DNA from: a virus
Strand: one strand, 5' to 3'
IMG/VR virus record: IMGVR_UViG_3300042397_002774
Coordinates: 96,927 to 160,926 of that record
DNA: 64,000 nt
Shown: piece after piece, positions 9,259-61,984 of the stretch
Numbering within the stretch: position 1 is the first letter of the stretch
How the letters are laid out: the number at the start of each line of letters is the position of its first letter
Position numbers and translations under genes: made by a program
The notes under the pieces: generated by a model
The model's input: only the letters and a program-made list of their open reading frames with translations
The model's database searches: none
What the model was told of the DNA's origin: nothing

Positions 9259-10491
9259 TTATATTATTTTACCTATTACTATTATTTTATCTGCAGGTAC
9301 AAATTCATATTCTAACAATGTAGGATTTATTGTTAATATTGAATTTGATCCTACAGTTTCAAATGATACAATTGCTGATAATGGTATGTAAAGGCTATTA
9401 GCAGTAAATGTAAAGTTTGATAATGTAGGAGCAGGAACTAATGATCCTTGTGGTGGGTTCAATATACTAACACCAGCAAATACTGCTTGGGTTGGTGTTA
9501 CAGTTGTAGCTACTCTTGTATTATTTGTTTGTAAGTATTCAAGATCACTAGCTGCTACACTTACAAGAGTAATATTAGTTGATCCTTCAACAAATGATGT
9601 ACCACCACCTATATTTGGTCTAATTCCAATTGTTTGTACTTCTTCAGCATCACCTGTTGTAGTTTCTAAACCAAATACAACTTGGGATTTTGAATAAAAC
9701 ATATCACTATTAGCTAATTCTTTATTAATAGAATCCGGAATTATATACCCATTTAATGTAATACTAAATGTTGTTTTTGCAATTCTATCATTATCTGATT
9801 CTACTGACACTGTTGTAGCAAATGAATCGATTTTAGATCTAAATTGAAAACGTTTTGGATCACCCCAATATGAATCAGAAGCAAATTCTACAGCTTCAAC
9901 AATTTTATTATTTTGTTCTACATAGTTTGTAAATATAATACATTCATATGTTACAGTAACGTAATCAGGTACTACAGATACATAAAACTGAGATGATGGA
10001 ACTTTATTTGTTAATATTGAAAATTTATCATAATGGTTTTTAGCATTATATTTTGTTTCAAATACTTGAAATAAATGAGCTTTATTACCATCTATTTTAT
10101 TACCTAAAGTTCTATTTTTTTCAACATTATTACGTCTGAATACTATAATAGGAACTCTAACTTTATTATTTGAATCTCTTAAGAATCCATCCTGTTGTAT
10201 TGATTTCCATCTTTCAGGAGAACCATATATTATAGGAACATTAATCATTTCCCCATCTTGGAAGACTTGAGGTTTGATTGTGTTGTTAAAATAATATATA
10301 ATAGCTCCATCTAAGTCTTGTAAACCAATAGAAAAATCTTTTATTTTATCGTTTTTACGAGAAATTTCTTTAGCACGATTTTGAGTAAAAGAAGTAGTAG
10401 AAACTGGCTTGCCTATTGATTTATCATAGGCTGTTATTTGTGACTGTGCAGCCTCAAATGGTTTTGTTGTTTCTATAGATCTTTTTCTCAT
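9259..10491 (-). CDS. Neck/tail-completion region structural protein (unknown)
   Basis: 410 residues, starting one base into the stop of the preceding 117-residue gene. The N-terminus is basic and Ser/Thr-rich; the middle is mixed alpha/beta with a conserved-looking stretch (FRSKIDSFATTVSVESDNDR ... FSITLNGYIIPD); the last third is beta-rich. In T4-like genomes of marine bacteria, proteins in this place after the neck genes are virion components. The context suggests a head-tail connector, tail-completion or tail-terminator function. No motif fixes which. Confidence 0.5.
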   Translation of the reverse strand: MRKRSIETTKPFEAAQSQITAYDKSIGKPVSTTSFTQNRAKEISRKNDKIKDFSIGLQDLDGAIIYYFNNTIKPQVFQDGEMINVPIIYGSPERWKSIQQDGFLRDSNNKVRVPIIVFRRNNVEKNRTLGNKIDGNKAHLFQVFETKYNAKNHYDKFSILTNKVPSSQFYVSVVPDYVTVTYECIIFTNYVEQNNKIVEAVEFASDSYWGDPKRFQFRSKIDSFATTVSVESDNDRIAKTTFSITLNGYIIPDSINKELANSDMFYSKSQVVFGLETTTGDAEEVQTIGIRPNIGGGTSFVEGSTNITLVSVAASDLEYLQTNNTRVATTVTPTQAVFAGVSILNPPQGSLVPAPTLSNFTFTANSLYIPLSAIVSFETVGSNSILTINPTLLEYEFVPADKIIVIGKII

Positions 10492-10844
10492 TATATTCTA
10501 CCTTGCTTTTCTAAAGCCATTAATTTATCTAAAGCATTCATCGCTCTAAATAATTGATTGTATAATTTACTAATTTCTTTTGCTGTAGCAGCAATATCTG
10601 GATTTGTGGAGAAAGTGAATACATCAAATTCTCTTTTATTTTGAATAATATTTCTTTTAATACCATCAATTTTAGGTAGATTAATTACTTGAGAAGCAGA
10701 CATTTCAGGACGATTTGGATCCTGAGGTAATGGGACTAAAAGTCTTCCTGTTTTGTATAATTCTCTTTTTTGATCGGGAGTTAAGTCTGAAATAGTTACT
10801 TCAGGACTTCCCATAATTTCGTCTAATATATCTGTTAATTTCAT
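10491..10844 (-). CDS. Small protein with MKLTDILDEI leader, neck region
   Basis: 117 residues. It begins MKLTDILDEIMGS, a clear member of the window's leader-peptide group with an LDE tripeptide. The rest is mostly helical and has no recognised domain: PLPQDPNRPEMSASQVI, then a segment ending in a coiled-coil-like KLYNQLFRAMNALDKLMAL. It is translationally packed with its neighbours (2 nt to the upstream gene, 1-nt overlap with the downstream gene). It lies among neck genes, so it may be a connector component or a capsid-targeted small protein. Confidence 0.55.
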   Translation of the reverse strand: MKLTDILDEIMGSPEVTISDLTPDQKRELYKTGRLLVPLPQDPNRPEMSASQVINLPKIDGIKRNIIQNKREFDVFTFSTNPDIAATAKEISKLYNQLFRAMNALDKLMALEKQGRI

Positions 10845-10846
10845 AA

Positions 10847-11185
10847 TTAATATTGTCCTACTTTTTCAATTGTTTGTAATCTAGGTAAAAATTGTAATAA
10901 ACCATCTACTTTATGAGTAGTTGATGCTGCAACTTTAATTTTTTGAATATCTTCTTCTGGTGTTGATGATACAATATATTTTAATTTTAATAAAGCAAAT
11001 TCAGCTACATTAGTTGCCTTTGCATCTAAAAAATCACTTTGTTGTACAGTTACAACTACAACTCCAGGAAGAGCTCTAACCTCATTATAAATCAATACTT
11101 GATTATAATTTGAATTAGTTTTTATCAATACTTCTATTTTGTATATAGATAAAATTTCGTTTAATATATTTTCTAGTTTTATCAT
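10847..11185 (-). CDS. Small protein with MIKLENILNEI leader, neck region
   Basis: 112 residues from the ATG at 11185. A longer frame exists to 11227, but the ATG at 11185 forms an ATGA overlap with the upstream stop and aligns the N-terminus MIKLENILNEIL with the leader group, so I choose it. The body has a predicted alpha/beta pattern (YNEVRALPGVVVVTVQQSDF) that could be a small ferredoxin-like or ACT-like fold; this is only a guess from strand pattern. It lies between the gp14-position gene and the 117-residue gene in one tight transcription unit. Confidence 0.55.
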   Translation of the reverse strand: MIKLENILNEILSIYKIEVLIKTNSNYNQVLIYNEVRALPGVVVVTVQQSDFLDAKATNVAEFALLKLKYIVSSTPEEDIQKIKVAASTTHKVDGLLQFLPRLQTIEKVGQY

Positions 11186-14510: not shown

Positions 14511-14512
14511 TA

Positions 14513-14592: not shown

Positions 14593-16185
14593 TTAAACAG
14601 TTTCTAAACCATGAACGATCACTTTACCATAGAATTCAGGACGAACCATTTTCTTAGCGTAACGAGTCATCAAACCTTTACGTGGAGTAAATGTTGTTGG
14701 ATCGTATACTAATGGAGTCATCATTACAGGGATGTAAGGAGCAAATACAGCACCAGTTTCTAAGAACTGAGCACCTTTATAACCCATCAAGATGATGTTT
14801 TCAGTGAAGTAAGGGTTTTTGTAAACTTTGTAACGGCTGTTTAAAGAACCGATCTTTTGGATACCGAAATTGAATTCAGCTTTATCACCATCACCATCAG
14901 AAGCAAATCCTGGGATTGATTCTAAGATAGTTGCAACAGTTGGAGATACTACTAAGAAGTTAGCACCACCACGTAATGTTAATTGGTGAATCTTGTTAGA
15001 TACTTTTTGTAACTTAGTACCTAAAGTTTGGAACCAACCACCTTGAGTGTTGAAGAAAGTGTTTGTTAAAGAAGCGAAAGCGCTACCGTTCCAAGCTACG
15101 TTGTTCTGAGCTGACCAATATTCAGTAGTTGAAGTTGGTACGTTCTTGATCAACATTTCTAAGATTTCTAAATCGATTTCCATAGAGATGTATTGGCTCA
15201 TCAAGCTAGTTAATTCAGCTTCAGCGTCGATTGAATGGTAAGCATTCAAATCTTGAGCGAATTCTGGAGTCCATTGTGCTTTTAACTTACGAGTTTTAGC
15301 AACAACTGCTTCAGACTTCATGTTAACGTCTAATGAAGGGATAACGATTTGAGAAGCGCTGTTAGCGTTAGGTACGCTGTAGTCAGCTCTGTCTTCGAAA
15401 TCACCACGAGCGTTATCACGGTTAGCTTTATTGTAGAATAAAGTTACAGTACCGTGAGCTGGAGAACCAGTTGCGATGAAGATCATATCATTACCAGATA
15501 CTTTAGTGTACTGAGGTAAGATTGTAGATTCGTCGAAGTTAGAACCACTAACGAAACAAGCTCTTGCAGCTTCTAAATCTTGGTCAGTTTGAGCAGCACC
15601 GTTAGTTACAGTGATTTTCTTTAAAGAACCTGTAGCTACAGTTGAATCGAAGTTAACGTCAGCTAACAATACAGAAGAAGTAGCTGCAGTTAAAGATGCA
15701 GAGAATTGGTTAATTGAATAACCGAATTTACCAACACCATATAAACCTTTAGTGATGTCAGTTGACTTTAAGTCAGCAGAAGCACCATATAAAGATCCAG
15801 CAAATGCTTTCTTATCAGTACCATACTTGAAATCAAGATAGAAGATAAGACCTGAAGGTAAGCTCATTGATTGAACTGAAACGAATTCTTTAGCGCTGAT
15901 ATCACCGAACACACGGCGAACTAACGGTAAAGCAACTCCAGCCCAGTTTTCACCAAAACCACCAGCACCGAAAGTAGCAGCACCACCACCTAAACCAGTT
16001 TGGTTGCTTTCTACTACTAATTGCTTAGCTTGGTTTTCTAATAAGATAGCCATGTTGTTTTTCTCAACTTCGCCTTTAAGACCTTCCAAAAGGCCAGACT
16101 TAGCCCACTTAGAGACTAAGGTGTTAGCTGTATCCATTACACGAGCGTAAGGATTAGCTGATTCTAATAATTGTTGAATTTCCAT
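14593..16185 (-). CDS. Major capsid protein, T4 gp23-like
   Basis: 530 residues, close to T4 gp23 (521). The N-terminal ~60 residues are helical and charged (MEIQQLLESANPY ... KQLVVES), like the gp23 propeptide that the prohead protease removes. A likely cut is after VVE at residue 59, just before the Gly-rich GLGGGAATFGAGGFGENWAG. The rest has the HK97-fold capsid pattern (ALPLVRRVFGDISAKEFVSVQSM; VSPTVATILESIPGF). The start of the propeptide resembles the leader peptides on other proteins in this window. It follows the scaffold gene by 25 nt and precedes a strong terminator, as fits very high expression. Confidence 0.95.
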   Translation of the reverse strand: MEIQQLLESANPYARVMDTANTLVSKWAKSGLLEGLKGEVEKNNMAILLENQAKQLVVESNQTGLGGGAATFGAGGFGENWAGVALPLVRRVFGDISAKEFVSVQSMSLPSGLIFYLDFKYGTDKKAFAGSLYGASADLKSTDITKGLYGVGKFGYSINQFSASLTAATSSVLLADVNFDSTVATGSLKKITVTNGAAQTDQDLEAARACFVSGSNFDESTILPQYTKVSGNDMIFIATGSPAHGTVTLFYNKANRDNARGDFEDRADYSVPNANSASQIVIPSLDVNMKSEAVVAKTRKLKAQWTPEFAQDLNAYHSIDAEAELTSLMSQYISMEIDLEILEMLIKNVPTSTTEYWSAQNNVAWNGSAFASLTNTFFNTQGGWFQTLGTKLQKVSNKIHQLTLRGGANFLVVSPTVATILESIPGFASDGDGDKAEFNFGIQKIGSLNSRYKVYKNPYFTENIILMGYKGAQFLETGAVFAPYIPVMMTPLVYDPTTFTPRKGLMTRYAKKMVRPEFYGKVIVHGLETV

Positions 16186-16210: not shown

Positions 16211-17344
16211 TTAATATTTTGTTATACCTGCTAACTTTTGGAATCTAGAAATTTGTTCGTTTGTTTCAACGATTTGTTTGCTAGGTGCATTGCCAGCTGG
16301 TTTTGAAGCGAATCCTTTAATGATTCCTTCTTTTACCATACCTTTAGAAGTTTCTTTAGCTTCTAGAGACTCATTAAGAGCTTCGAATACTAATTTAGCT
16401 TCGTTTGGTGTTGATGCTTTATCAAAGGCGTTAATTACTTTGATTTTGTTGTCTTCTGATAAGTTTTTAGCTTTGAAGATCTTGTTAACATATAATAACT
16501 TAGCGTTTAATAAGTTAACTTCATTCAATTCGTTACGTAAAGTTTTGATTGTAGCAACTGCTTCATCTAATTCTTTTTCGTCTTTTTTAGCTTTCTTAGC
16601 TTCATCTACTACATCTTCAGTTGCTTCGTTTTCGTCTAAAGCATCTAATTCAGCTAATAGTTCTTCTAAGTTGATTTCATCTTCTGAAGATTCAGTTTCT
16701 TCTTCAGTACCATCTAATTCAACAGCATCATCTCCCATCATTTCTTCTTCATCTTCTGCACCTTCAGCGCCTAATTCAGAATCTACGATGTCTTTGATAA
16801 TGTCTTTTAAATCTTCAATAGATAAATCAGCTACTGATGTTTCTTCTTCAGATGTTTCATCTTCCATTTCTTCTTCAGTTTCTTCTTTACCTTCTCTCAT
16901 ACCAGAAGCGGCTGCGGCTCCTAATTTTTCTAATTCAGCATATGCCTTCTTAGCCATAGGTCCACCCTTCTTAATAAGAGATTTAATACCGTTGATGATG
17001 TTTTCTAAACCAGCACCAGCTGCATTTGATGGATCATATCCACTGCTTGCTCCGGTTACTTCGTCGATTTCTTCATCAGAACCTTCTTCAAGTTCTAATT
17101 CAGCTAAAAACTCGTCTAAATTCAACTCTTCTTCCATGTTTTCTTCATTGAAAGTTTCTACTTCTTCGATTTCTTCTTTAACATCTTCATCATCTTTTGC
17201 CATTTCTTCTAATTTAGAAGCTAACATAGATTGTAAATGAGGAGTTAAAGTTTCTTCAAGAGCAGCTTTTGCATTAACTAACGCAGCTTCGCGAATAGTT
17301 TTTGCTTCAGCAATTGCTTGCTTAAATAATTCTTTGTTTGTCAT
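16211..17344 (-). CDS. Prohead scaffold (core) protein, gp22-like
   Basis: 377 residues, very acidic and rich in Glu, Asp, Ala and Lys, with long predicted coiled coils and many (L/I)xE sites, as expected for the T4 gp22 core protein that the prohead protease digests. Synteny (protease, then this gene, then major capsid) is the T4 order. The C-terminus reads NEQISRFQKLAGITKY. A closely related motif (NEIxRMQQLAGI) occurs in neighbouring head-region proteins, suggesting a shared capsid- or core-binding peptide. A long antisense frame over this gene is a composition artefact. Confidence 0.85.
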   Translation of the reverse strand: MTNKELFKQAIAEAKTIREAALVNAKAALEETLTPHLQSMLASKLEEMAKDDEDVKEEIEEVETFNEENMEEELNLDEFLAELELEEGSDEEIDEVTGASSGYDPSNAAGAGLENIINGIKSLIKKGGPMAKKAYAELEKLGAAAASGMREGKEETEEEMEDETSEEETSVADLSIEDLKDIIKDIVDSELGAEGAEDEEEMMGDDAVELDGTEEETESSEDEINLEELLAELDALDENEATEDVVDEAKKAKKDEKELDEAVATIKTLRNELNEVNLLNAKLLYVNKIFKAKNLSEDNKIKVINAFDKASTPNEAKLVFEALNESLEAKETSKGMVKEGIIKGFASKPAGNAPSKQIVETNEQISRFQKLAGITKY

Positions 17345-17490: not shown

Positions 17491-19002
17491 TTAAGCAGCT
17501 ACTATTTTTTGTGCTAGTTGTATAACTTCTGCTGTTTTAAATGCTGCTGCTCCTCCTTCTAATCCTTTTATAACTAAATTAACGGCATTAGCAGCTTCAA
17601 ATCCTGAGGCTACAGCAGCTGCGGTTAATATAGCGGCATAAACTCCATGAGCGGCATCATATAACGGTGATGTTTGATCAAATGGGTCTTGATTACCAAA
17701 TTTTTTAGGATATGCTTTCTTTAACACATAAGAAATTGCTTCAATATATTTGTGTTCTAAGTCATGCCCCTTTTTTTGCAACCATTGTCCTACTTGTGTT
17801 TGTCCTACAGCTCCATAAGAAAAATAATTAGCAGCTCCATCAACAGCTTTACCAAGTAAATTTATTAAACCTGGAGCACCTGCAGTTAGCGCAAATAATG
17901 TAAGTGGTCCTAGTTCATTTATTTGTCCATCTTTAGGAGATGGTTTTATTGTTGATGCTGCAGATTTAAGATCTCCTAGTATATCTAGTAATCCTTTTTC
18001 AACTCCTTGCCCAACATTAGCTTCTACTTCAGTAATAATACCAGCTAATTGCTGCATTCTTATAATTTCATTGATATTAGATTTCATTTCTTGAATTTTA
18101 ATTTTTGTATTAGAAATACTATTTACTTTTTCTTCTATAGATTTTATAGTTTTATATAGATCTTTTAAAAATTCTTTATAACCTTCGGGGTTATGTTGTT
18201 TTATTTTAGATAAATATTCTAAATATTCTGATAGAGCATAATCTGAGTCGGAAGGTGTTCTTATTATTTGGCTTACAAAGTTAAATATTTTTTGGAAAAA
18301 TTTTCTACTACCTGTTCCATCTATAAATTCTTTTGTTTCAGTACTAATAATTTTAGTTTTACCTGCAAAATATTGTAATATGTTTAACAGTGCTTTTTCA
18401 ATCCTTTTAATATCTCCGGGATTATTTGTAGTATTTAATACTCTATCAGTTCCTGTTATTAAGGATTCAAAAAATTGACCAGTAAATGTTTGAAATTCAG
18501 CCCATGATTTGTAATAAATAGCTTCATCATTAGGATCATAAGCTTGTTTTAAATAATGGTGGTTTAAGGCAGGATCTTTAGCATGTATTAACTCATGTTT
18601 AAGAGTCTGTCTTAACCTTTCAATACCTGTATTTTCATTTCCAGTAACAGTTTTATAAAGTCTTTGATCAAAGTCTTGAAAACTATTAGGTCCCGGAAAA
18701 AATTGTTTAAAATAGGTTTGATTTATAAAAATCCAATTATCTGTTCTATTATTTTTATCATACGTAGAAAATTGACCTTTAGCATTTTTGTCAATAGCAC
18801 CAACACCAATTTCTACTTCTCCTTTTTCACCATCAGAATAGATGTATGATATTTTACCAGCAGACCAAACCTGCCCACTACTAGGAATATTTTTGGTTTT
18901 AATAATCTCAATTATTTCTGGGATTATTGTTTCTAGTTGTTGTCTTTCTTCAGGGGTAAGAGTTAAAGTTCCTTCTTCAATTATGTTTAGTAACTTTATC
19001 AT
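17491..19002 (-). CDS. Metallopeptidase-like / head-targeted protein fusion
   Basis: 503 residues that look like two proteins joined. Residues 1-300 start with the leader MIKLLNIIEEG and contain LKHELIHAKDP (HELIH at 136-140), a zinc-metallopeptidase HExxH motif. Residue Met306 begins MKSNINEIIRMQQLAGI, almost the same as the natural N-terminus of the 225-residue protein at 22691 (MKNQLNEIKRMQQLAGLLNE). The remaining ~180 residues are Ala/Gly-rich with hydrophobic stretches (LTLFALTAGAPGLINLLG; AAILTAAAVASGFEAANAV). It lies between the prohead protease and the scaffold, so it is probably a head component or cargo. The substrate is unknown, and the metal site is inferred from the motif only. 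Confidence 0.6.
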   Translation of the reverse strand: MIKLLNIIEEGTLTLTPEERQQLETIIPEIIEIIKTKNIPSSGQVWSAGKISYIYSDGEKGEVEIGVGAIDKNAKGQFSTYDKNNRTDNWIFINQTYFKQFFPGPNSFQDFDQRLYKTVTGNENTGIERLRQTLKHELIHAKDPALNHHYLKQAYDPNDEAIYYKSWAEFQTFTGQFFESLITGTDRVLNTTNNPGDIKRIEKALLNILQYFAGKTKIISTETKEFIDGTGSRKFFQKIFNFVSQIIRTPSDSDYALSEYLEYLSKIKQHNPEGYKEFLKDLYKTIKSIEEKVNSISNTKIKIQEMKSNINEIIRMQQLAGIITEVEANVGQGVEKGLLDILGDLKSAASTIKPSPKDGQINELGPLTLFALTAGAPGLINLLGKAVDGAANYFSYGAVGQTQVGQWLQKKGHDLEHKYIEAISYVLKKAYPKKFGNQDPFDQTSPLYDAAHGVYAAILTAAAVASGFEAANAVNLVIKGLEGGAAAFKTAEVIQLAQKIVAA

Positions 19003-19006: not shown

Positions 19007-19615
19007 TTAGCATAAAGGACAAACTCCTGTTGCGTTACAAATAATTTCTGTAATTAATCCGTTTACTTTGCTATAGTCTTTACTAGATTGTACTTTTTTA
19101 CCTTCAGATAATGACATATAAGCACCCGGAGTTGATGGTACTGATACTAGATCCCAACATAATAATTCAAAATCGTCTTGTACCTCTACTGTTTCACCCA
19201 ATTGCTTAACACTACCCATACCACGAGATGAAATACCTAATGGAATGCCGGCTAGTACAATTTCTTGTGCAATTTTACCTGATGGTGTGTTTAATAATTC
19301 TAATTCACCCATTACATCATTACCTTCCCACCAAACCTTAGTGATTATATGAGAAACGTTATTTAAGTTAATAATTGATGATTCTGGGTGGTCTAATTCA
19401 CCTGTTGCTGTTCTAGTAGCTACAGGTCCTTTAGTATACATTTCTACTTGTTTTCTAAGAATATTCATAGGATAAACACGACCATTACCGTTTTTAACTT
19501 CGGCTTCTTGTAATTTACCTTTGATACGCATTCTAGTACCAGTTCCTTCTTTACCTTCAGATAAAGTAAGTTTAGCTACGTGGAATGGTGTATGATCTAC
19601 TAATAGTTGTTTCAT
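19007..19615 (-). CDS. Prohead core protease, gp21-like
   Basis: 202 residues, similar in length to T4 gp21 (212). The fold features of the S78 prohead protease family are present: GRVYPMNILRKQVE near residue 46, the His of GELDHPES (H76), and the catalytic Ser in GIPLGISSRGMG (S129/S130). This protease matures the prohead by cleaving the scaffold, capsid propeptide and internal proteins after short (L/I)xE-type sites. It is placed directly before the fusion gene, scaffold and capsid. The C-terminus ends with an unusual Cys pair (GVCPLC). Confidence 0.92.
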   Translation of the reverse strand: MKQLLVDHTPFHVAKLTLSEGKEGTGTRMRIKGKLQEAEVKNGNGRVYPMNILRKQVEMYTKGPVATRTATGELDHPESSIINLNNVSHIITKVWWEGNDVMGELELLNTPSGKIAQEIVLAGIPLGISSRGMGSVKQLGETVEVQDDFELLCWDLVSVPSTPGAYMSLSEGKKVQSSKDYSKVNGLITEIICNATGVCPLC

Positions 19616-22014: not shown

Positions 22015-22691
22015 TATTTATAGCCTAACTTAGTTAATACTTGTTCAACTTGGCTTCTAACAGCAGATTTACTAATTTTACCTGGCTCAAACCCTAAAGA
22101 TTGAAACCAAACTTCAAAAGCTCCTGGAAATTCCTGAATGCTGTTGATGTTTTTAGATTTATTAGCTACAGTAGTTGCTGATGCTTGAGCTCTACCTAAA
22201 GCAGCAACATCACTAGGTGTATTGGTTGCTGGGGCTTCATTTAAATTTTTCTCTAATTCATCAACTAGTTGATATACTATTGATTGTTGAGCTACAAGAT
22301 ATCCTGCGTTAGCTTCAACTTCTTTACCATATCCTCTATAAACACTTCCTTCTTGTCTAGCTATAATACATTTTAACCCATCAGGTTTTATGCTTATAGT
22401 ACTTTGTGTAAAATTATCATCCTTTGTATTTACTCCTTTTGATAATCCACTATTTCTGTTACCAGCAAATTCTTTAGCTAATTTATGTAATTCTTTTGCT
22501 TCTTCAACTGATATAGTTAATTGATTGTCTTTAAAACCCCCACCTAATACACTTAAAGTAATTTGTGTGTTTCCTTCTTTACTGGTGTCTTTTTGTATAT
22601 CTAAAGTATCTACAGCTTCTTCTAACTGCGATTCATTAAGTAATCCAGCTAATTGCTGCATTCTTTTAATTTCGTTAAGTTGATTTTTCAT
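22014..22691 (-). CDS. Head-region protein with N-terminal MQQLAG motif
   Basis: 225 residues. The N-terminus MKNQLNEIKRMQQLAGLLNE carries the motif shared with the scaffold C-terminus and the middle of the 503-residue fusion. The central part is a small alpha/beta domain (GNTQITLSVLGGGFKDNQLT ... STISIKPDGLKCIIARQ). An Ala/Thr-rich linker leads to a C-terminal helical domain (FPGAFEVWFQSLGFEPGKIS ... VEQVLTKLGYK). No enzyme motif is seen. It is 1 nt from the upstream gene and overlaps the downstream gene. A head-assembly or packaged role is inferred from the motif and position. Confidence 0.5.
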   Translation of the reverse strand: MKNQLNEIKRMQQLAGLLNESQLEEAVDTLDIQKDTSKEGNTQITLSVLGGGFKDNQLTISVEEAKELHKLAKEFAGNRNSGLSKGVNTKDDNFTQSTISIKPDGLKCIIARQEGSVYRGYGKEVEANAGYLVAQQSIVYQLVDELEKNLNEAPATNTPSDVAALGRAQASATTVANKSKNINSIQEFPGAFEVWFQSLGFEPGKISKSAVRSQVEQVLTKLGYK

Positions 22692-27836: not shown

Positions 27837-28982
27837 TTATTTTTTGATACCTGCATAATACTGCATTCTGTGTTTAATACCTTCATTCAAATCATCCATT
27901 TCATCTTCGTCCTCAAGTGGATTTTCGATTGGTGGTGGAGCAATATATTCTTTGCCTGCTTTTTTAGCAATATCTTTTTGTAAATATTCTGATTTAGCAA
28001 CTAAAGCATCAATTCTCTGTTCTAGACTTGCTTTTAAATCAGTTAAACCTTTAATTTCTCTAGCTGTACTACCTACGTCATTAATATCACCAGGTGTGCT
28101 TCTATATCTTTTAGTTTTTAATAGATTTGATTTAACACTTCTTAAACGATCAGATAATTTTGAATATTCCATCCAATCTTGATAATCTTCATCTGAAATG
28201 GTAACTGCTGATTTTGATCTGCTACCACCTGTCATTTCAGGTTCTGGTTCTTCTCCTGAAGCTTTAGCTGCTGCGAATGCTGCTTCTACTTCATCATCTG
28301 ACATTTCTTCTTGGCCTGATATTCCTAATGAATCTAATTCACGTGATGTAAACATACTACCAGCTCCTGCTCTTCTACCTCTTGGATTGTAATATAATTC
28401 TTCATCACCAGTCGCTGTTGTAGATGCTGTTGGAGTAGGTCTTGGGTTTGTTAATCTTGGTGCTGCTTGTTCTGATGAAGAAACAATAACACCTGCATCA
28501 ACTAATTCCATAAAATCTTTATTGATTGGATTTTGTTTATCATAACCCATTTCACCAGCTACGTTCATTTTTGATACTGCTGATCCTGCTGCTTGAATAG
28601 CTGCTAAAATTTTAGCTTTTTTACCAGAAAATCCTGCAATTTGTGCATCAGTAACATCGTCTGCTAATTGATATCTAACACCAACATTTGCCATTTCGTC
28701 TAATTCTGTTGAAGACATACCTGGTTTTGATAGTTTGGTAAGTTTTAATTGTGCTGCTTGTATATTTTTATTAACAGCATTTATTTCAGCATCTTTTCCT
28801 GGTTTATCTACTGGAGCTACTTGTTGAGCAGTTAATTCTTGTTTTTTCTTATTAAGTGCTGCTATTTTAGCTCTTTCGGCAGCTAATGCTGCATTTTGTG
28901 CTTGTTTATCCTCAGCAGGACCTTCTTCAATTACTTCAAGTAATGCTTCACGGATAATATCTTGCAGTTCAGATTTTTTCAT
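27837..28982 (-). CDS. Putative capsid-targeted protein, two head motifs
   Basis: 381 residues from the ATG at 28982, which aligns the leader MKKSELQDIIREALLEVIEE with others in the window. An ATG at 28997 would add five residues. The body is Ala/Glu/Lys-rich: a coiled coil (AALAAERAKIAALNKKKQEL), a small winged-helix-like region (YQLADDVTDAQIAGFSGKKA), Pro/Thr linkers, and another coiled coil. The C-terminus LNEGIKHRMQYYAGIKK is a variant of the MQQLAG motif at the scaffold C-terminus. It therefore carries both proposed head signals. Cargo or a core protein are the likely roles; no enzyme motif is seen. Confidence 0.5.
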   Translation of the reverse strand: MKKSELQDIIREALLEVIEEGPAEDKQAQNAALAAERAKIAALNKKKQELTAQQVAPVDKPGKDAEINAVNKNIQAAQLKLTKLSKPGMSSTELDEMANVGVRYQLADDVTDAQIAGFSGKKAKILAAIQAAGSAVSKMNVAGEMGYDKQNPINKDFMELVDAGVIVSSSEQAAPRLTNPRPTPTASTTATGDEELYYNPRGRRAGAGSMFTSRELDSLGISGQEEMSDDEVEAAFAAAKASGEEPEPEMTGGSRSKSAVTISDEDYQDWMEYSKLSDRLRSVKSNLLKTKRYRSTPGDINDVGSTAREIKGLTDLKASLEQRIDALVAKSEYLQKDIAKKAGKEYIAPPPIENPLEDEDEMDDLNEGIKHRMQYYAGIKK

Positions 28983-31585: not shown

Positions 31586-32740
31586 TTATTGTAATGTTGG
31601 GGTTTTGTTATAATCAATAACTAAAGTTTTTCCTCCTTTAGTTGGTTCTAATTTTGCTTGTTTTAATGGAATTGTTCTAAAATCAATTCCGTATTTTTGA
31701 TTTTCATGACGTGCAATTGATATAATAGGCATATCGTCAGGTTGTAAATCATCTTTATCATTCATATTTCTAGTAGTCTTAATGGTTAAAATACCATTTT
31801 CAAGACTATAATCAGTTGATGAAAATGAACGTTGTACTATTTTAGCTTTATCAGGGCCAAATGTAATATTTTCTAAATTTTCTTCTATTCCTGGGTAATT
31901 AAGTATGAATATTCTTCCATATCTTCTTTCATCTTCAGGATCTACCATATCTAGTACCTTAGGTTGGAGTGGGTTTGGTTTTATTTGTAACTTAGGTATT
32001 TCACCTTTTTGTCCACCCTCAATAAATTTATTCAACAAATCATTAAAATTTTTTCTTTCACTACTCCACCAATAAGGACCGTCTTTTTTTACAGATATGT
32101 TTTGTTCACCTTCTGATGTTGTTAATGATACATCTCCTTTAAAACCTAATTTACTACCTTTTACCCCCATACCTTCTGCTTTTGAAACATCAGAAATGAA
32201 AATTTCTTTTCCTTTTTCATCAACAAACTTAACATTTATAGGACCACCATTTTCTTCTACAAAATTATTAATAGCATCTACTAACTCTTTTTCATTAGAT
32301 ACTCCAGCTCCACCTGATGTTTGGCCACCTAAATTAGATGATTTATAAATTGTACTTACATTTATTGATGTTTCTTGACCATTTAATTGTCCTATAATTT
32401 TTACATTACGAGCATTACTAACATTTCTAATAGCTCCTATCAGATTAGATTTTTCTTCTGGTTTATCTGCAAAAAATGTTTCGTTATTTACAACAATGTA
32501 GTCTGCTATGAAATCTTCTTCACCTTTAGAACCTAATTTAAATGGTTCTAGACTATAAAAAATATCAACAAATTGATCAGGACGTTTTTTAATTGTATTT
32601 AACGATAACATAGCTTCTTCTAATTCTATTTCATTAATTATTTCTTGTAAAATAGATAGCTTTTTAGGATTGTTTAAATCAACAATCCCATCATGGCAAC
32701 GAAATGACCACTCATTTAATATTTTATCTATAACTGTCAT
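31586..32740 (-). CDS. Leader-bearing protein of unknown function
   Basis: 384 residues from the ATG at 32740, placed 1 nt after the upstream stop. A longer frame to 32899 would read Gln/Lys/Leu-rich nonsense antiphase to the upstream gene and is rejected. The N-terminus MTVIDKILNEWSFRCHDGIV contains the LNE leader tripeptide, and a second similar stretch follows (LSILQEIINEIELEE). The body is mixed alpha/beta with a Gly/Lys-rich part (EGMGVKGSKLGFKGDVSLTT) resembling a nuclease-type core (FKGDVSLTT ... NISVKKDGPYWW) in spacing only. I cannot name a family. It may be packaged with its neighbours. Confidence 0.5.
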   Translation of the reverse strand: MTVIDKILNEWSFRCHDGIVDLNNPKKLSILQEIINEIELEEAMLSLNTIKKRPDQFVDIFYSLEPFKLGSKGEEDFIADYIVVNNETFFADKPEEKSNLIGAIRNVSNARNVKIIGQLNGQETSINVSTIYKSSNLGGQTSGGAGVSNEKELVDAINNFVEENGGPINVKFVDEKGKEIFISDVSKAEGMGVKGSKLGFKGDVSLTTSEGEQNISVKKDGPYWWSSERKNFNDLLNKFIEGGQKGEIPKLQIKPNPLQPKVLDMVDPEDERRYGRIFILNYPGIEENLENITFGPDKAKIVQRSFSSTDYSLENGILTIKTTRNMNDKDDLQPDDMPIISIARHENQKYGIDFRTIPLKQAKLEPTKGGKTLVIDYNKTPTLQ

Positions 32741-32741
32741 A

Positions 32742-33284
32742 TTATGCTTCTGCTGGTGGAGGAGTTTCTTCTGCTGGTGTTTCTTCAGGTGTAGCTGGGG
32801 TTTCAGCTCCTGATAAATCATTAAATGCTGCTTCGCCAGCATCTGGTGCTGCAGGAGCTTCTGGAGCTGCTGCGTCTGCAGGTACTGCTGTATTTGCATC
32901 TTCTTTAAGTGCAGGAGATAATGATAATAAATTTGATACAGCTTGGCTTGCTTTATCTATAGCACTACCCATAGCTAAATCATATCTTTTACCTGCTACT
33001 TTAGCTATAAAAGTACCACCTGAGTATACTAATTGGAAATCTAATCCATTGATTAATTCAATATTAAGAGTTGTTGGTTTTGGAGCAACAACAGTAACAC
33101 TGCTTAAATATCTACTAAATGAAGGAGACATTATTGATTCAACAGCATCTTTTAATTTAGGAAAACGATATATTAAATACAAAGATTTTTCAGCACGCTT
33201 GATTGCTTGCTCTTCCTCTTGCAATCTTTGTCTGATTGCTTTTTTAATATATTTTTCTAATAATATTTTTTTAGTATTCTCCAT
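32742..33284 (-). CDS. Leader-bearing protein with Ala/Pro/Glu tail
   Basis: 180 residues. The N-terminal helix [20 protein letters not shown] is followed by LQEEEQA. A compact alpha/beta domain comes next ([20 protein letters not shown] ... [20 protein letters not shown]). The last ~50 residues are a low-complexity Ala/Pro/Glu tail ([31 protein letters not shown]). The start overlaps the upstream stop region by 14 nt. No function is recognised; the tail may be disordered. Confidence 0.5.
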
Positions 33285-33642
33285 TATTTTCCATTTCGTT
33301 AGCTTCTTCAGTTAAATATTGTTCTATACTATTCATATAATCTGAAGCTAAAGTAATATATGCAGATACCCAACCTGGTAATTGTTGGTTAGGTTCGATC
33401 ATTTTATAAATTTTAGAAGCATTTTCTACCATACTTCTTAGTTCACTTTTAGCCATTGTGGCTTCGTGATCTTCAGTTTTAGGCCAAGTTAAATGAGTTT
33501 CTTTAACTAAAGCTACAGCAATTTTTTTACGACGATTAGCAAGATAAGAATCTGTCTTATTTACTTTACCATCATTGTTGATGTCTTTATCTTCTTTACC
33601 CACTGGGTCTAAGCCTTCTACTAAATTTGATAATCTAATCAT
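33271..33642 (-). CDS. Leader-bearing protein with EF-hand/dockerin-like loop
   Basis: 123 residues. It starts [11 protein letters not shown]. Residues 20-31 ([12 protein letters not shown]) match a calcium-binding EF-hand or dockerin loop (D-x-N-x-D-G-x-hydrophobic-x-x-x-D), followed by [13 protein letters not shown]. The C-terminal half is a helical bundle ([20 protein letters not shown]). If cut after the leader VEG/LVE site, the loop would sit at the new N-terminus. Calcium binding is inferred only from the pattern. Confidence 0.6.
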
Positions 33643-33644: not shown

Positions 33645-34076
33645 TTATTTCATTGATTGTTTTGTAGCAGTTGCGTACATAACTTTTTCAGCGTCTTTGC
33701 CATATTTGTCAAAGCCATCTGATTTTTTCATTGCTTTAACATTTTTTTCTTTTTTAGCTTTTTCGCTTTTAGTCATCTTACGCTCTTTAACTGGTTTATC
33801 CATTGCTTTTAATTGTTCTTCAAGCTCTTTTTTCTTAGCTTCAAGTTCAGCAATGCTGTTATCCATATCATCCATCAAATCACCAATAATTTCTGTATCA
33901 ACATATTGATTAATATTTGTTGGAATAGCAGATTTAATATCGCTAGCTTCTTTGATATCTTCTTCGATTTTAGCAATTTTTGCACTAATTGCTGCTTTAT
34001 CACCAGCCTCATCGATCATTCTTAAACGTTCTCCGATAGCTTCTTTAATAATTTGGCGTAATTGATTAGTATTCAT
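33645..34076 (-). CDS. Leader-bearing coiled-coil protein
   Basis: 143 residues. The N-terminus [20 protein letters not shown] is a class-II leader (xLxxIIxEAI). The middle is an acidic coiled coil ([20 protein letters not shown]). The C-terminus is Lys-rich ([20 protein letters not shown]) and ends in [20 protein letters not shown]. The charge is strongly split between acidic and basic halves, as in DNA-associated internal proteins. No enzyme motif is seen. Confidence 0.5.
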
Positions 34077-35123: not shown

Positions 35124-35374
35124 TATTTTTTAGATTGAAATCTTTTAACAATTTTATCTACCATTTCTTCTTCATTCATTGAAGCCTTTGGTTTTGGTTT
35201 AACATCAGGATTTCCCAATGGACGACGAGGTTTTGGTTTATCAGTACCAGGTTTAGCTGGTATTGTTGTAGGTTCTGGGCTAACGCCTGGTTTTGAAGGA
35301 GCTACTGCTGGGCCTTCAGCTAATACTTTCTCTATCACTTCACGGATAGTTTCTTTTAATTTACTTATTTGCAT
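35123..35374 (-). CDS. Small leader-bearing Pro-rich protein
   Basis: 83 residues. The N-terminus MQISKLKETIREVIEKVLAE is a class-II leader ending in LAEG. The rest is Pro/Lys-rich and probably unfolded (GVSPEPTTIPAKPGTDKPKP), closing with EEEMVDKIVKRFQSKK. The protein is little more than a leader plus a flexible tail, which makes it a useful test of the targeting idea. Confidence 0.5.
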   Translation of the reverse strand: MQISKLKETIREVIEKVLAEGPAVAPSKPGVSPEPTTIPAKPGTDKPKPRRPLGNPDVKPKPKASMNEEEMVDKIVKRFQSKK

Positions 35375-37985: not shown

Positions 37986-38404
37986 TATTTATTAAACTTT
38001 ACTTTTGCTTTATCTGTATTAGATACAAATTGCTTACCTTTTTTAGACCCAGCTACTTTTTTACGTGATGTAGCAGCGCGTTCAGCTTTAGTTAAACGAT
38101 TTGCCTTAGCACGAGGTAAACAACGAGTTGTTGCTTTATCTTTTTTCATTGTACCACAAGGACCAGTTATGTTACCTTGTGTATCAATACGAACCCAATC
38201 TTCTTTTTTAAACCAATCACGAAGAGATTCATGTAAATCTAAATCATCTTCTTCCATTAATCCTTTACATACCTTAACAGCACGACCAGAAAGATAAGCT
38301 GATGGTTTTTCACCAGCAGCTCTGCGACGATCATAATAAGCTTTACCTTTTTTGCAAAGCTTTTCTACAATGATCTGGTCTAGTATTTCTTGTAATTTAA
38401 TCAC
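37985..38404 (-). CDS. Leader-bearing DUF5872-like protein
   Basis: 139 residues from a GTG start (GTGA overlap with the upstream stop) that aligns MIKLQEILDQIIVEK with the leader group. The middle has CKKGKAYYDRRRAAGEKPSA. The C-terminal ~70 residues match DUF5872 from memory: LRDWFKKEDWVRID, GPCGTMKKDKATTRCLPRAK, LTKAERAATSRKK. Two conserved Cys and many basic residues suggest a small metal- or nucleic-acid-binding domain. The family has no known function. Confidence 0.65.
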   Translation of the reverse strand: MIKLQEILDQIIVEKLCKKGKAYYDRRRAAGEKPSAYLSGRAVKVCKGLMEEDDLDLHESLRDWFKKEDWVRIDTQGNITGPCGTMKKDKATTRCLPRAKANRLTKAERAATSRKKVAGSKKGKQFVSNTDKAKVKFNK

Positions 38405-38664: not shown

Positions 38665-39074
38665 AACAATATTTCATCTGGTACTTTAAACTGCCATATA
38701 GTAGCTTTACCCTTTTGTAGCATCAATGCTGTAAGTCTAGTATTACCACCAATCAATTCTTTGTATCCATCTGAATATAAAGCAACAATTGGCATTTCTA
38801 CATTGCCTGCTTCAATTTGAGCTAATGCTCTTTTTTGTTTTTCTGGGTTTAAAGTTTTAAAAGTACTTGGTTCATCTGCGTTAGTATTATTTATATCCTT
38901 TGCAGAAGTTAAATTAACAGGTTTACCAGTCTTAGCTAATTCTACCCATTTAGCTTTACCTAATTTTTTAAATTCAGGATAGCGTTTTGCTTCCATCCAT
39001 TCTTTTTCAAAATTAGGATTGCTATATTGAACAGAATCTGTAATTTCTTTTAATATGTCGAATAATTTAATCAT
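38661..39074 (-). CDS. Leader-bearing ParB/sulfiredoxin-like protein
   Basis: 137 residues from the ATG at 39074, which overlaps the upstream stop as TAATG; a TTG two codons earlier is less likely. The leader is MIKLFDILKEI. The C-terminal half has the ParB-type N-terminal domain signature MPIVALYSDGYKELIGGNTR followed by LTALMLQ, where the GGNTR box corresponds to the GxxR nucleotide-binding motif of the ParB/Srx fold. ParB-like domains can bind CTP or ATP, or cut DNA. The exact activity here is unknown. Confidence 0.65.
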   Translation of the reverse strand: MIKLFDILKEITDSVQYSNPNFEKEWMEAKRYPEFKKLGKAKWVELAKTGKPVNLTSAKDINNTNADEPSTFKTLNPEKQKRALAQIEAGNVEMPIVALYSDGYKELIGGNTRLTALMLQKGKATIWQFKVPDEILL

Positions 39075-39682
39075 TACCAAAATCCACCAAATGATGTTTT
39101 AAAGCCTAATAATTTAGCATATCTTGGTAAACGACATGACCAATATGATGCTTTTGTTCTATCTTTTTTCTGAGCGCATTTATGGCGAGCTGCAAATGCT
39201 TTACGGGCTTTTGGATTATTTAATTTAGCTCTTAATCCTGTAGTATCACCAAATGATACTTTTTTAATACCCCCACCCGGTTTACGAACATATACATAAA
39301 ACTTTTTAGAACCACCACGTTTTGGTTTACCAATAGGAGGTGTTTTCTTTTTATCTACTTCGTTTATAATTTCTTCTAAACTGATTGGGTAATCTAAAGG
39401 AACATTGAATCCATTATAATTATCAATTTCACCAATATTAGATTCTAATAATTCAGCATCATCTTCAGTTACAGATAATATACCTTTATTATATAATTCA
39501 CGTGCTTCACGAAATAAAGCAAAATAATTATTAGATAGGGGGCGGTAGATATTGTGAATTAACTGTCTACCTTCAGTTATATGGTATTTCATACCTTCAG
39601 ATAACAATATTGATTCTTTACCTTCAGATATTATTTGAGGACCATTGCAGCCACAATCTTGTTCTTCTTGTAAATTTATCAT
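39074..39682 (-). CDS. Leader-bearing Cys/Trp-domain protein
   Basis: 202 residues. The N-terminus MINLQEEQDCGCNGPQIISE has an LQE site and a Cys-x-Cys pair. A helical middle (FALFREARELYNKGILSVTE) leads to the C-terminal domain KKFYVYVRKPGGGIKKVSFG, KARKAFAARHKCAQKKDRTK, ASYWSCRLPRYAKL. The ARHxCxxxxDxTxxxYWSCRxxR core is recurrent in marine phages from memory (DUF6321-like) and may bind a metal or nucleic acid. Its function is unknown. Confidence 0.6.
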   Translation of the reverse strand: MINLQEEQDCGCNGPQIISEGKESILLSEGMKYHITEGRQLIHNIYRPLSNNYFALFREARELYNKGILSVTEDDAELLESNIGEIDNYNGFNVPLDYPISLEEIINEVDKKKTPPIGKPKRGGSKKFYVYVRKPGGGIKKVSFGDTTGLRAKLNNPKARKAFAARHKCAQKKDRTKASYWSCRLPRYAKLLGFKTSFGGFW

Positions 39683-40579: not shown

Positions 40580-41964
40580 AAACCTAATTCTTTTAATTGT
40601 TGAATTGTATCAGCAGCTGAAGTATGTAATACACCTACACCACCTGCATCCTTCCATCTTTGAATATTATCTGCTCTATCATCAATCAATATTGATTTAG
40701 GAGACGCATAAAATTGTTTATACTCTGCTGATTTAAGAAGTAATACTGTACCTGGGAGATTTTGTTCTACCCATTTTTGTTTTCCTGTTCTTGAAGATTC
40801 TTGTCTTGAAGGAGCTGAAAGTAATTTAGGAGAATATGGTTTAATGTAATTCCATAGTTCTTGACCATCTTCCATCCACTCCATTTCAGTCCAAAATGAT
40901 TCACCAGCATCAGTTATTGGTTGCCAAAAATCAGCATCACCCTTAACATGATTTCCTCTAATATTTTTGCCTGTTAGTTTTTCATAAGCACCTTCAAAGT
41001 CAACAATAACACCATCCATATCGCAATAGATTCTGTATTGTGGTGATTGTGCTTCGAATATCATAGGATTAATTTGTGCAAATTTTCTCATTATTTGCCC
41101 TGCTTTAGAATTTGCTTCGTTTTCAGTATCAGAACCTGTAGTTCCGTCTAAAGGTTGACCTTTTTGTTTTTGTGATAAGTGTACCAATTCATGAGAAACA
41201 GTTCGGCAAATATCAGCCATATTACGGTTACCCGTATAAATCCAAATCTTGTCGTCTTGTGGACTATATAACCCCATTGACCTCATTTCTCTCGCTTTCT
41301 CCGTATCCCTACTTATCACGATTTTTCCCCCTCCCCCCTCAATACCCAATTCACGTAGGGTAAATCTAATGAACTCCTTTAATAAAGACAAGTTTTCTTG
41401 GCCTTCTTTTAACTCTTCTTTTTCCGTGTCGCCCATTGTATAACCAGCAGCATCCATGAATTGCTTCACATCAATACCATCTGGTAAAAATTTTTTGATT
41501 AGGTCTTCTTTTTTAGATTTAATTGCTATTCTAAAATTAGTAGCACTTATATTATCAAATGTTCCTGCATTAAATAATTCAGCATTTCTATATTTTTCAT
41601 TTGAAAGAATAGAATTAAAACGAGTAAATTCATCTTTACCAAATGCTGCTACAATTTTAGCTTCTGGATTTGATGTAATTATGTCATAGGTTTCTCTAAC
41701 AGGATTTTCATCTACAACTAAAAAATTAACATTTCCTGGCAGTAAGGTTTTATATAATTCCCACACTCTATAACTTTCATCAGCTGTAATTCCTTCACGA
41801 GTTTTAGGAGAGATAAAGACTTGAACTTCATCACACATATCTGATAAGCGTTTAACAACATTAAAATGACCTTTATGTGGTGGTTTAAATGCACCTGGGA
41901 ATACACCAATAACGTATTGTTTTTCCTCTAATAATTGTTTTGCTATGTGTTGTCCTAAATTCAT
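40576..41964 (-). CDS. Nucleotidyltransferase / HExxH / HAD phosphatase fusion
   Basis: 462 residues with three modules. First, after the leader MNLGQHIAKQLLEEK, a cytidylyltransferase-like domain with GVFPGAFKPPHKGHFNVVKR (HxGH at 30-33) and a matching SATNFR near 140. Second, residues ~195-300 with TVSHELVHLSQKQK (HELVH at 258-262) and a downstream acid-rich helix (TENEANSKAGQIMRKF), a metallopeptidase-like domain. Third, a HAD-type phosphatase (YCDMDGVIVDF at 313-323; LIDDRADNIQRW) close to 5'(3')-nucleotidases. It is adjacent to a P-loop kinase gene. The combination suggests transfer and removal of a nucleotide or phosphate, with unknown substrates. Confidence 0.75.
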   Translation of the reverse strand: MNLGQHIAKQLLEEKQYVIGVFPGAFKPPHKGHFNVVKRLSDMCDEVQVFISPKTREGITADESYRVWELYKTLLPGNVNFLVVDENPVRETYDIITSNPEAKIVAAFGKDEFTRFNSILSNEKYRNAELFNAGTFDNISATNFRIAIKSKKEDLIKKFLPDGIDVKQFMDAAGYTMGDTEKEELKEGQENLSLLKEFIRFTLRELGIEGGGGKIVISRDTEKAREMRSMGLYSPQDDKIWIYTGNRNMADICRTVSHELVHLSQKQKGQPLDGTTGSDTENEANSKAGQIMRKFAQINPMIFEAQSPQYRIYCDMDGVIVDFEGAYEKLTGKNIRGNHVKGDADFWQPITDAGESFWTEMEWMEDGQELWNYIKPYSPKLLSAPSRQESSRTGKQKWVEQNLPGTVLLLKSAEYKQFYASPKSILIDDRADNIQRWKDAGGVGVLHTSAADTIQQLKELGL

Positions 41965-42800
41965 TACTGCACAAATGATTTTACTTTAGATATAATTTCT
42001 GATTCAGATAAAACGGATTCTTTAATTTTTTTATCAATATTAATGAATTCGCGTTCTAGCTGCTCTACTTGTTTTTTATAGTTTTCTCTTGATTTTTCTG
42101 ACGCTTTATCCTTTTTAGCCTGCTCATCAGGTGATAAAGGTTCATCTTGAGTTTTACGAAAAGTTGATATAAACTGTTCTGGATTTGTTTGAGTTAATTG
42201 TTCTAACCAATCAAATAATTTACCTTGTTGAACGGCTTGATTAAACCCATTAATTTCTTTTTGATACTCTTGATCAGGAGCTTGATATAATACAAAATTA
42301 TCTCCTAATTTATTTTTATAAGTATCTATATTTCCATAAACATTATTCCATGTTTGGATAACACCAACTTTAGGTACTCTACGTTCACGTTTGAAATTCC
42401 TTAAAAATGATACAATTGGGTGAGCATACACCATAATCATTAATGTATCATAATTAGACGCAGTGTTTAATAAACCTGGTACTTCTTTTCTTTTATATAG
42501 ACCACCGATTAATTTAGCGGCATTAGATGCGGTAGTATCCCAAATAAACGCCTTACCTGATGAAAGTGCATTAGGTACGTCAACATCATCTACTTGAGCA
42601 GAAGCCGCTGTAAGATTGTTGAACATTTCACTTGATTTATCTTCAATGTACTTATCTGGGTTGATTATTTCAAACCCAGGTGTTACACCTTTAATTTTAT
42701 TTATTAAAGTAGACTTCCCAGCTCCGGCGCCTCCCGCCATGATTATCATTTTATTTTGAGGCATTGCTGCTTCCATTAATAAGTCAATTAATCTGATCAT
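41964..42800 (-). CDS. Leader-bearing P-loop kinase (zeta-toxin/PNK-like)
   Basis: 278 residues. The leader MIRLIDLLMEAAM is followed at once by the Walker A motif IIMAGGAGAGKSTLINKI (residues 19-36), an Asp-containing DKY after ~20 residues, FIWDTTASN, and a basic lid (FLRNFKRERRVPKVG). This resembles zeta-toxin or polynucleotide-kinase-type phosphotransferases. The C-terminal third is a charged coiled coil. It overlaps the nucleotidyltransferase/HAD gene by TAATG, implying joint function. The phosphate acceptor is unknown. Confidence 0.7.
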   Translation of the reverse strand: MIRLIDLLMEAAMPQNKMIIMAGGAGAGKSTLINKIKGVTPGFEIINPDKYIEDKSSEMFNNLTAASAQVDDVDVPNALSSGKAFIWDTTASNAAKLIGGLYKRKEVPGLLNTASNYDTLMIMVYAHPIVSFLRNFKRERRVPKVGVIQTWNNVYGNIDTYKNKLGDNFVLYQAPDQEYQKEINGFNQAVQQGKLFDWLEQLTQTNPEQFISTFRKTQDEPLSPDEQAKKDKASEKSRENYKKQVEQLEREFINIDKKIKESVLSESEIISKVKSFVQ

Positions 42801-58699: not shown

Positions 58700-58700
58700 G

Positions 58701-58749: not shown

Positions 58750-58776
58750 CTATTTAATTATGTGTTATTTAAAATA

Positions 58777-59376: not shown

Positions 59377-59388
59377 ATTTTATTTAAT

Positions 59389-61218: not shown

Positions 61219-61628
61219 TATTCAAAGTTAATTTGTATTTCATCCGCTTCTCCTGATATTCTCATACTATATTCAACTTTTACATTTACATAGTTTTGAT
61301 CTGGTTCAGGGGTAATGATTACGTTTTCTAAATTTATTTCAGGTATAAATGTTTGTACACCAACCCTTATGTTATTATTAATTTTATTAATATTATCCGT
61401 GTTGATAAAATCAAATATAGACTTTTTAATATCACAACCAAATTCAGGATTTTCAACTCTTTCACCTTTATTAGTTAATAAAAGATTAATCAAATTATAT
61501 TTTACCTGTTCTTTAGTACTATACGTGCTTTTAAAAGCAGAGAACTTATTAAAAGGAATACTAAGACCAATTGCAATATTTTTTTGCAAATCTCTAGGAT
61601 CAACACGATATATTCTTGGTGTAGGCAT
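61218..61628 (-). CDS. Baseplate wedge protein, gp25-like
   Basis: 136 residues, near the T4 gp25 length (132). It contains NLINLLLTNKGERVENPEFG followed by CDIKKSIFDFIN, the lysozyme-like-named but non-catalytic GPW/gp25 motif, and ends with beta strands (VKVEYSMRISGEADEIQINF). It joins gp6 in the inner baseplate wedge. It has TAATG overlaps on both sides. Confidence 0.92.
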   Translation of the reverse strand: MPTPRIYRVDPRDLQKNIAIGLSIPFNKFSAFKSTYSTKEQVKYNLINLLLTNKGERVENPEFGCDIKKSIFDFINTDNINKINNNIRVGVQTFIPEINLENVIITPEPDQNYVNVKVEYSMRISGEADEIQINFE

Positions 61629-61984
61629 TATCCTTGTGATTGTAACATTTGTCTCATTTCTTGAGGACTAAGGTTATTAGCAGTATCATTAATAAAAGCA
61701 GCAAATGGGTTATCACTATTTGGATCTACTTGTAGGTTTTTTGATTGAGGTTTAGCACCTGCTGGCATTCCGAACATTTCTGCCATTTTGTTACCAACTT
61801 GTGACCTCATCCCAACACTGTGAACATCCCCACTATCAAATGATAATGAACGATTTTCAGTAAGTGGTTTACTTTGTACAGCATTTCCACTTTTTAATTG
61901 TTCCAATAACATTAAGCCAATTTCTTCACGAACTGCTTCGCGAACTGCTTCTTTAATAACTGATTTGAATTGTTTAGCATCCAT
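61628..61984 (-). CDS. Leader-like helical protein in the baseplate block
   Basis: 118 residues. The N-terminus MDAKQFKSVIKEAVREAVRE resembles the class-II leaders of the accessory island. The rest is polar and flexible (SLSFDSGDVHSVGMRSQVGN), ending in PQEMRQMLQSQG. It overlaps the gp25-like gene. Here a leader-like helix occurs beside tail rather than head genes, which is a caution for the targeting idea. The function is unknown. Confidence 0.5.
   Translation of the reverse strand: MDAKQFKSVIKEAVREAVREEIGLMLLEQLKSGNAVQSKPLTENRSLSFDSGDVHSVGMRSQVGNKMAEMFGMPAGAKPQSKNLQVDPNSDNPFAAFINDTANNLSPQEMRQMLQSQG

Follow-up and report, generated by a model that had tools for sequence, protein, structure and literature searches.

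Why do so many phage proteins with unrelated bodies begin with the same kind of short peptide? The question arises in the last 64 kb of the 160,926-base virus record IMGVR_UViG_3300042397_002774, a stretch of 64,000 nucleotides called the window here, in which about 15 proteins had been annotated as sharing N-terminal leaders proposed to load a diverse enzyme cargo into the head. Judged by its genes, the window phage is a T4-like marine myovirus with a gp21-type protease, a gp22-type scaffold, and a gp23-type capsid protein, and a gp20-type portal and a terminase are also encoded in the window. The closest relative in culture is Flavobacterium phage vB_FspM_immuto (hereafter immuto; laboratory host Flavobacterium sp. 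LMO8), with a capsid protein 57.7% identical over the full length and a counterpart region (81-133 kb) of identical layout that carries leaders of like kinds. Immuto proteins with such leaders include QQO91867.1, in which IITE is followed by SQFNEEL..., and class II/III proteins at 102-104 kb and 117-119 kb, and its gp21-type protease is QQO91880.1. We consider it likely that the leaders serve as capsid-targeting propeptides and that the head protease cuts them, with several interchangeable classes, 1 of them a mimic of the scaffold tail, and with part of the cargo made as polyproteins. A large and varied protein cargo is probably loaded into the head.

Leaders in the head and cargo gene block

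All 15 N-termini listed in the initial annotation, together with the capsid protein start MEIQQLLES, were found on the minus strand at their annotated positions, and each of the 15 contains (L/I)xE. A start differing from that of the longest open reading frame was required at 28982, 32740, and 39074, and the protein at 38404 has a GTG start. The longest open reading frame at 31586-32899 holds about 50 extra low-complexity residues (QLQKLLQHQ...) ahead of the likely true start at 32740. The leaders are 9-20 residues long and fall into classes with the consensus MIKLxxILxE (class I), MKKSxLRxIIKEAL (class II), FDLKKFLVENKLT (class III, from phage immuto), and xxRMQxLAGIIxE (class IV). Those at 32740 and 61984 may not be leaders and were not counted, because each stays with its body without variation in every homologue seen and the one at 61984 lies within a baseplate gene group. 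The clearest class, class IV, had been missed in that list, with RMQQLAGLLNE at 22691 and a further copy inside the 17491-19002 protein.

A class I profile was trained on related contigs, with the close relatives of the window and the capsid proteins left out, and matched 12 of 55 proteins of the late head/cargo block and 2 of the other 138 proteins in that genome (p = 6e-6). Across 6 genomes, it matched 51 of 306 block proteins versus 17 of 1011 elsewhere, with shuffled N-termini giving a total of 4.7 matches, and a few of the matches, such as TerL, are probably false. The triplet (L/I)xE was present within the first 22 residues in 29/55 block proteins versus 21/130 other proteins (p = 7e-7), an enrichment repeated in 5 other genomes (p = 4e-5 to 0.007). 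These p-values are somewhat generous, because the block borders were drawn from flanking genes with the leaders already in view. All-against-all comparison of N-terminal 25-mers in 1 genome gave 20 similar pairs versus 7-10 in control segments; because this excess is only modest, the case rests on profiles and relatives.

The scaffold tail, cut sites, and leader exchange

The protein at 22014-22691 starts MKNQLNEIKRMQQLAGLLNES. We searched 2,227 proteins from the window phage and related phages for the class IV motif [RHK][MFWL][QKM]x[LIYMF]AG[ILVM] and obtained 130 matches versus 0.65 in shuffled sequences. Almost all of them end a scaffold or the protein encoded upstream of TerL, or else lie at N-termini across many unlinked families. 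With a profile made from scaffold C-termini only, 8 of the 1,317 N-termini of the 6 genomes scored 19-28, the next scored 10.5, and none of 13,170 shuffled N-termini was matched. When viral contigs were scanned for an exact DNA pattern, with position and head genes disregarded, 74 distinct matches emerged: 33 N-terminal (at most 14 residues from the start), 40 C-terminal, and 1 internal. Run against bacterial and archaeal genomes totalling 257 billion bases, the same pattern had 38 matches, and these showed no such placement bias, 4 phage-derived-looking matches (3 scaffold tails and 1 leader) aside.

Among cultured phages, tblastn with the class IV leader matched only immuto records; the motif was not seen at the scaffold end of 1 cyanophage head region, and the T4 scaffold end does not have LAGI. 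Unannotated proteins encoded ahead of the capsid gene end in RIKRLAGL in Rhodothermus phage RM378 (L208 1863-2711) and in RMKKLAGIVK in Microcystis phage Mel-JY01 (L207 18857-19972), and both are likely scaffolds because of these LAG-type ends. In the window, the protein at 27837-28982, just upstream of the terminase, combines a class II start with a scaffold-like end (...RMQYYAGIKK) and might serve this group of phages as an additional scaffold or core protein. The class II helices are generic, and their likeness to the scaffold N-terminus is suggestive of copying. A similarity between the capsid start MEIQQLLES and the leaders had also been proposed; it proved weak, and class I as a copy of the capsid protein start was rejected, since a capsid-start profile does not retrieve class I.

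T4 gp21 cleaves by the rule L/I-X-E (PMC9026906). In class IV, [ILV]xE follows LAG within 9 residues in 86/93 leaders versus 10% in other stretches of the same proteins, with I or L at position P3 in 84/86 of these sites and S, N, G, or A at P1' in 69/86. Class I was defined without regard to E, and the residue 2 places past its core is E in 71% (background, 7%); in class II, E stands immediately past the core in 73%. Ahead of the scaffold tail, [ILV]xE is present in 60/65 cases, but this counts for less, since 48% of windows across the acidic scaffold contain such a site as well. In the capsid propeptide, the end [LI][VI]xE/[ASQ] and the site LLE/S (a slash marks the cut position) are kept in about 90 relatives.

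The bodies behind these leaders are varied, with 93 class IV leader bodies forming 79 clusters and no family matched by 2 members in Pfam, PHROG, and PADLOC searches of 87 class IV proteins. Comparison of N-termini across related phages, which the initial annotation had put forward as a check, found leaders present there and swapped on the same bodies. The body PSDVAALG..., the C-terminal part of the 22014-22691 protein, has a class IV leader in 7 distinct proteins and a class II leader in 6, among them those of near relatives of the window (L008 and L009). In most relatives, the body KLCxKGKAYY (37985-38404) is preceded by a class I leader, and in others by a class II leader; irrespective of the leader, an (I/L)xE-type triplet (IVE/K, ITE/K, IME/K, LAE/K, or LTE/K) adjoins the body or lies at most 4 residues ahead of it in 38/38 distinct upstream contexts. 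Homologues of the 39074-39682 body likewise begin with either class I or class II leaders, depending on the phage. Because 1 body bears different classes in different phages, we take the leader classes to do the same job. The claim of a diverse enzyme cargo held for a few bodies (nucleotidyltransferase fold, HAD phosphatase, and kinase), and most bodies are without a known family.

Candidate polyproteins and feature positions

The 17491-19002 protein (503 residues) has a class I leader plus a complete class IV leader at residues 306-325. In G002/L139, the second half is a separate protein that begins with that class IV leader, and 2 homologues about 40% identical retain the fusion and the internal leader, the residues of which are among the few invariant columns. 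The AlphaFold model of this protein was of low confidence (mean predicted local distance difference test, pLDDT, 53) and was not used.

The 40576-41964 protein (462 residues) comprises a nucleotidyltransferase-like domain, a peptidase-like domain with a HELVH motif, and a HAD domain, and the closest solved folds to the first of these are nicotinamide mononucleotide (NMN)/nicotinate and phosphopantetheine adenylyltransferases. Its AlphaFold model, from 24 sequences, had a mean pLDDT of 87, with values below 50 only at residues 178-188 and 305-307. Depending on the phage, a class I leader, a kinase, or a peptidase lies ahead of the HAD domain, and [LIVM]xE occurs in the 14 residues before that domain in 14/15 such contexts. 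The peptidase-HAD fusion appears split in some relatives, because the HAD gene of L427 lies directly behind a gene for a peptidase-like domain. NMN-adenylyltransferase-like cargo candidates are encoded in both the window (40576-41964) and immuto (L088 19132-21855, annotated as NadR-like), and we speculate that delivered NAD (nicotinamide adenine dinucleotide)-making enzymes could bear on NAD-depleting defences.

Table 1. Positions of leaders, candidate cut sites, and head genes in the window, with loci of relatives named by contig.
Feature	Position	Strand	Basis
gp23-type capsid protein gene	14593-16185	-	phrog_138
gp23-type capsid propeptide, N-terminal site LLE/S, conserved end QLVVE/S	16009..16185	-	PHROG 138
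gp22-type scaffold gene, N-terminus MTNKELFKQAIAEA like class II leaders	16211..17344	-	adjoins capsid protein gene, homologues, N-terminal profile
Scaffold C-terminal tail RFQKLAGITKY, the class IV leader peptide, IVE/T before it	16214..16246	-	motif, profile, DNA scan
gp21-type head maturation protease, own N-terminal LSE/G	19007..19615	-	phrog_207, E 4e-54
Class I leader MKLTDILDE	10818..10844	-	profile, relatives
Class I leader MIKLENILNE, leader variable, body conserved	11156..11185	-	relatives
Class I leader MIKLLNIIEE/G of two-part protein 17491-19002	18973..19002	-	kept in homologues ~40% identical
Internal class IV leader MKSNINEIIRMQQLAGIITE/V at junction of 17491-19002 protein	18028..18087	-	invariant columns in ~40% homologues
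Class IV leader MKNQLNEIKRMQQLAGLLNE/S of protein 22014-22691	22632..22691	-	motif, scaffold-tail profile, site count
Internal LNE/A before C-terminal body PSDVAALG (protein 22014-22691)	22236..22244	-	body stand-alone in relatives
Class II leader MKKSELQDIIREALLE of protein upstream of TerL	28935..28982	-	class II N-termini kept in homologues
Scaffold-like C-terminal tail RMQYYAGIKK of protein upstream of TerL	27840..27869	-	motif search
Class I-like N-terminus MTVIDKILNE, doubtful leader	32711..32740	-	same N-terminus in distant homologues
Leader-like N-terminus	33255..33284	-	N-terminus differs in distant homologues
Class I leader; leader and insert variable ahead of conserved body LDPVGKED	33616..33642	-	relatives
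Class II leader	34041..34076	-	N-terminal comparison, profile
Class II leader with end VLAE/G	35315..35374	-	relatives
Class I leader MIKLQEILDQIIVE/K ahead of body KLCxKGKAYY	38363..38404	-	class II leaders IME/K, ITE/K elsewhere
Class I leader MIKLFDILKE	39045..39074	-	relatives
Looser leader with end IISE/G	39623..39682	-	homologous body: class I or class II elsewhere
Leader MNLGQHIAKQLLEE of three-domain protein 40576-41964	41923..41964	-	kept in 1 homologue; AlphaFold helix 3-12 before domain 1
Candidate internal site LKE187/G, predicted disordered linker, domains 1-2	41404..41412	-	within pLDDT <50 residues 178-188
Candidate internal site IFE304/A, predicted disordered linker ahead of HAD domain	41053..41061	-	directly before residues 305-307
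Class I leader MIRLIDLLME/A of AAA/zeta-toxin-like kinase	42771..42800	-	profile, family search, relatives
Class II-like N-terminus MDAKQFKSVIKE of baseplate-adjacent gene, invariant across all homologues, unlikely to be a cargo leader	61949..61984	-	
Leaderless HAD-domain genes	L427:479-946, L430:716-1183, L441:1101-1568		
Class III loci, immuto-type	L088 15807-16355, L088 29632-30932, L090 1803-2318		

Class III, with the N-terminus MENFDLKKFLVENKLTxNSxxLKE, is on 4 immuto proteins, 1 of them far from the head genes. Tandem-like leaders, with class IV at the start and a class II-like peptide further in, were seen at L228:538-1191, L319:4204-5277, and L115:15673-16119. The C-terminus of the window protein at 19618-20718, beside the protease gene, is ENIVREVLAEENSK and resembles a class II leader placed at a protein end. 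The cargo block also includes a pyridine nucleotide-disulphide/flavin adenine dinucleotide oxidoreductase gene without a leader (30048-31448), and in phage Mel-JY01 the genes for the head protease and the capsid protein flank one annotated as ribosomal protein S21 (L207 17185-17412).

Competing explanations and known packaging systems

In the reading that we favor, a leader would be a short, mostly helical peptide docking its protein onto the growing prohead, at the scaffold core or the inner shell, and at prohead maturation the gp21-type protease would cut after (L/I)xE and free the body inside the head. The class IV leader would most likely take the docking site used by the scaffold tail, because it is the peptide that ends the scaffold protein. 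Polyprotein cargo, its domains parted by (L/I)xE sites or an internal leader, would be cut apart in the head, and the freed proteins would exit with the DNA. The motifs, their positions, the leader swaps, the kept sites, and the encoded protease are read directly from the genomes; loading, cutting, the docking partner, and delivery into the next host are what we infer from them. The earlier proposal of a targeting peptide and protease site on unrelated bodies is well supported by comparison, through swaps, kept junctions, P1 spacing, the encoded protease, and scaffold-tail identity; by analogy with T4, injection may follow. We lean slightly towards a head-loading code in which cargo borrows the C-terminal docking tail of the scaffold, and probably other scaffold-like ends too, for use at its own N-terminus; phages would swap tags of different classes freely, and polyproteins would be cut into domains in the capsid before delivery.

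Several observations weigh against this reading. Some leader genes are situated beyond the block, 7/93 class IV leaders are without a site, as are some short class IV starts (MSNRLQELAGIPSD...), and class II is a generic amphipathic helix, with best matches to the scaffold N-terminus (E about 0-0.3) that are real in rank and weak. The HAD domain is leaderless and stand-alone in about 7 relatives, and the cytidylyltransferase of G004 starts without a leader. Virion proteomics was found neither for the window phage nor, as far as our search went, for immuto, and some of the leader proteins may belong to the core or neck and not to the cargo.

In an alternative reading, the leader proteins are prohead core components like T4 gp67/gp68, recruited, cut up, and mostly lost, not delivered. 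The leaders do resemble scaffold termini, the protein upstream of TerL has both a class II start and a scaffold-like tail, and in T4 the core proteins, too, are substrates of this protease (PMC9026906). We regard this alternative as unlikely: the 93 bodies fall into 79 clusters, a changing set and not the conserved one to be expected of a structural core, and among them are folded, enzyme-like domains bordered by sites. We give still less credence to the idea that the leaders are protein-protein or membrane docking helices without proteolysis, in which (L/I)xE would simply arise from amphipathic helices rich in L, I, and E. The generic helices of classes I and II and the modest pairwise excess in 1 genome would suit it, but not the E at exact P1 spacing in 71% of class I, the [ILV]xE after the LAG motif in 86/93, or the junction site kept when the leader class changes. 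Shared N-termini produced by translation initiation or an AT-rich start-codon context, with no bearing on protein function, would be in keeping with leaders that are short and with AT-rich genomes favoring K, I, and N after the start; this is hardly credible given the 2/138 matches in the remainder of the same genome and the shuffled N-termini without a match, and it is contradicted by class IV peptides at C-termini and inside a fused protein.

Among known systems, the favored reading of capsid-targeting propeptides comes closest to T4, in which 10 residues of IPIII suffice for packaging and are removed by gp21, and injected IPI inhibits a restriction enzyme (PMC9026906, PMC3012670). The principle is that of the T4 capsid targeting sequence, which has been suggested to let T4-like phages package varied proteins (PMC9026906). 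As with T4 IPI, IPII, IPIII, and Alt, the window phage has a short N-terminal peptide on unrelated proteins with (L/I)xE at its end, a gp21-type protease, and a gp22-type scaffold (PMC9026906, PMC3012670), alongside the gp23-type capsid gene. A single leader type common to the cargo set was not found. T4 has 3 internal proteins and 1 type of targeting sequence (that of IPII equals that of IPIII, and that of IPI is similar), plus Alt, whereas the window phage and its relatives have at least 3 interchangeable classes, dozens of bodies, a scaffold-C-terminus class, and polyprotein cargo with internal sites. We therefore do not consider it a plain member of the T4 type, because at least 3 unlike classes are interchangeable on the same body.

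In phage P1, an N-terminal peptide of DarB is likewise sufficient for packaging of a reporter, but the Dar proteins lack a common N-terminal consensus and no scaffold has been identified in P1 (PMC9024508). Salmonella phage SPN3US also has many internal head proteins with N-terminal propeptides removed by a prohead protease, gp245; these propeptides are mostly 111-254 residues long, few proteins are cleaved, and no short shared leader family is reported (PMC10052503). Ejection proteins of the SPN3US/phiKZ type were set aside for the window phage, in which leaders of 9-20 residues go with a protease that matches the T4-type phrog_207. No description of the class IV motif was found in open-licence papers, and in the same literature the interchangeable classes, the scaffold-C-terminus identity, the polyprotein cargo, and the number of bodies were not found described, although a description elsewhere is possible. 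No T4 precedent was found in the literature for the scaffold-tail docking and polyprotein steps. In herpesviruses, the C-terminal tail of the scaffold, after the maturation-protease site, docks to the capsid protein, and we know of no borrowing of that tail by cargo proteins.

If this reading is true, the tags would provide a sequence handle for predicting phage proteins that travel in the head, most of them without a known family, and the recruitment of T4-type cargo would become directly testable. The T4 precedent suggests counter-defence roles for such cargo. What in T4 is a curiosity of 3 proteins would, in uncultured aquatic phages, become a cargo set that is large and changes fast.

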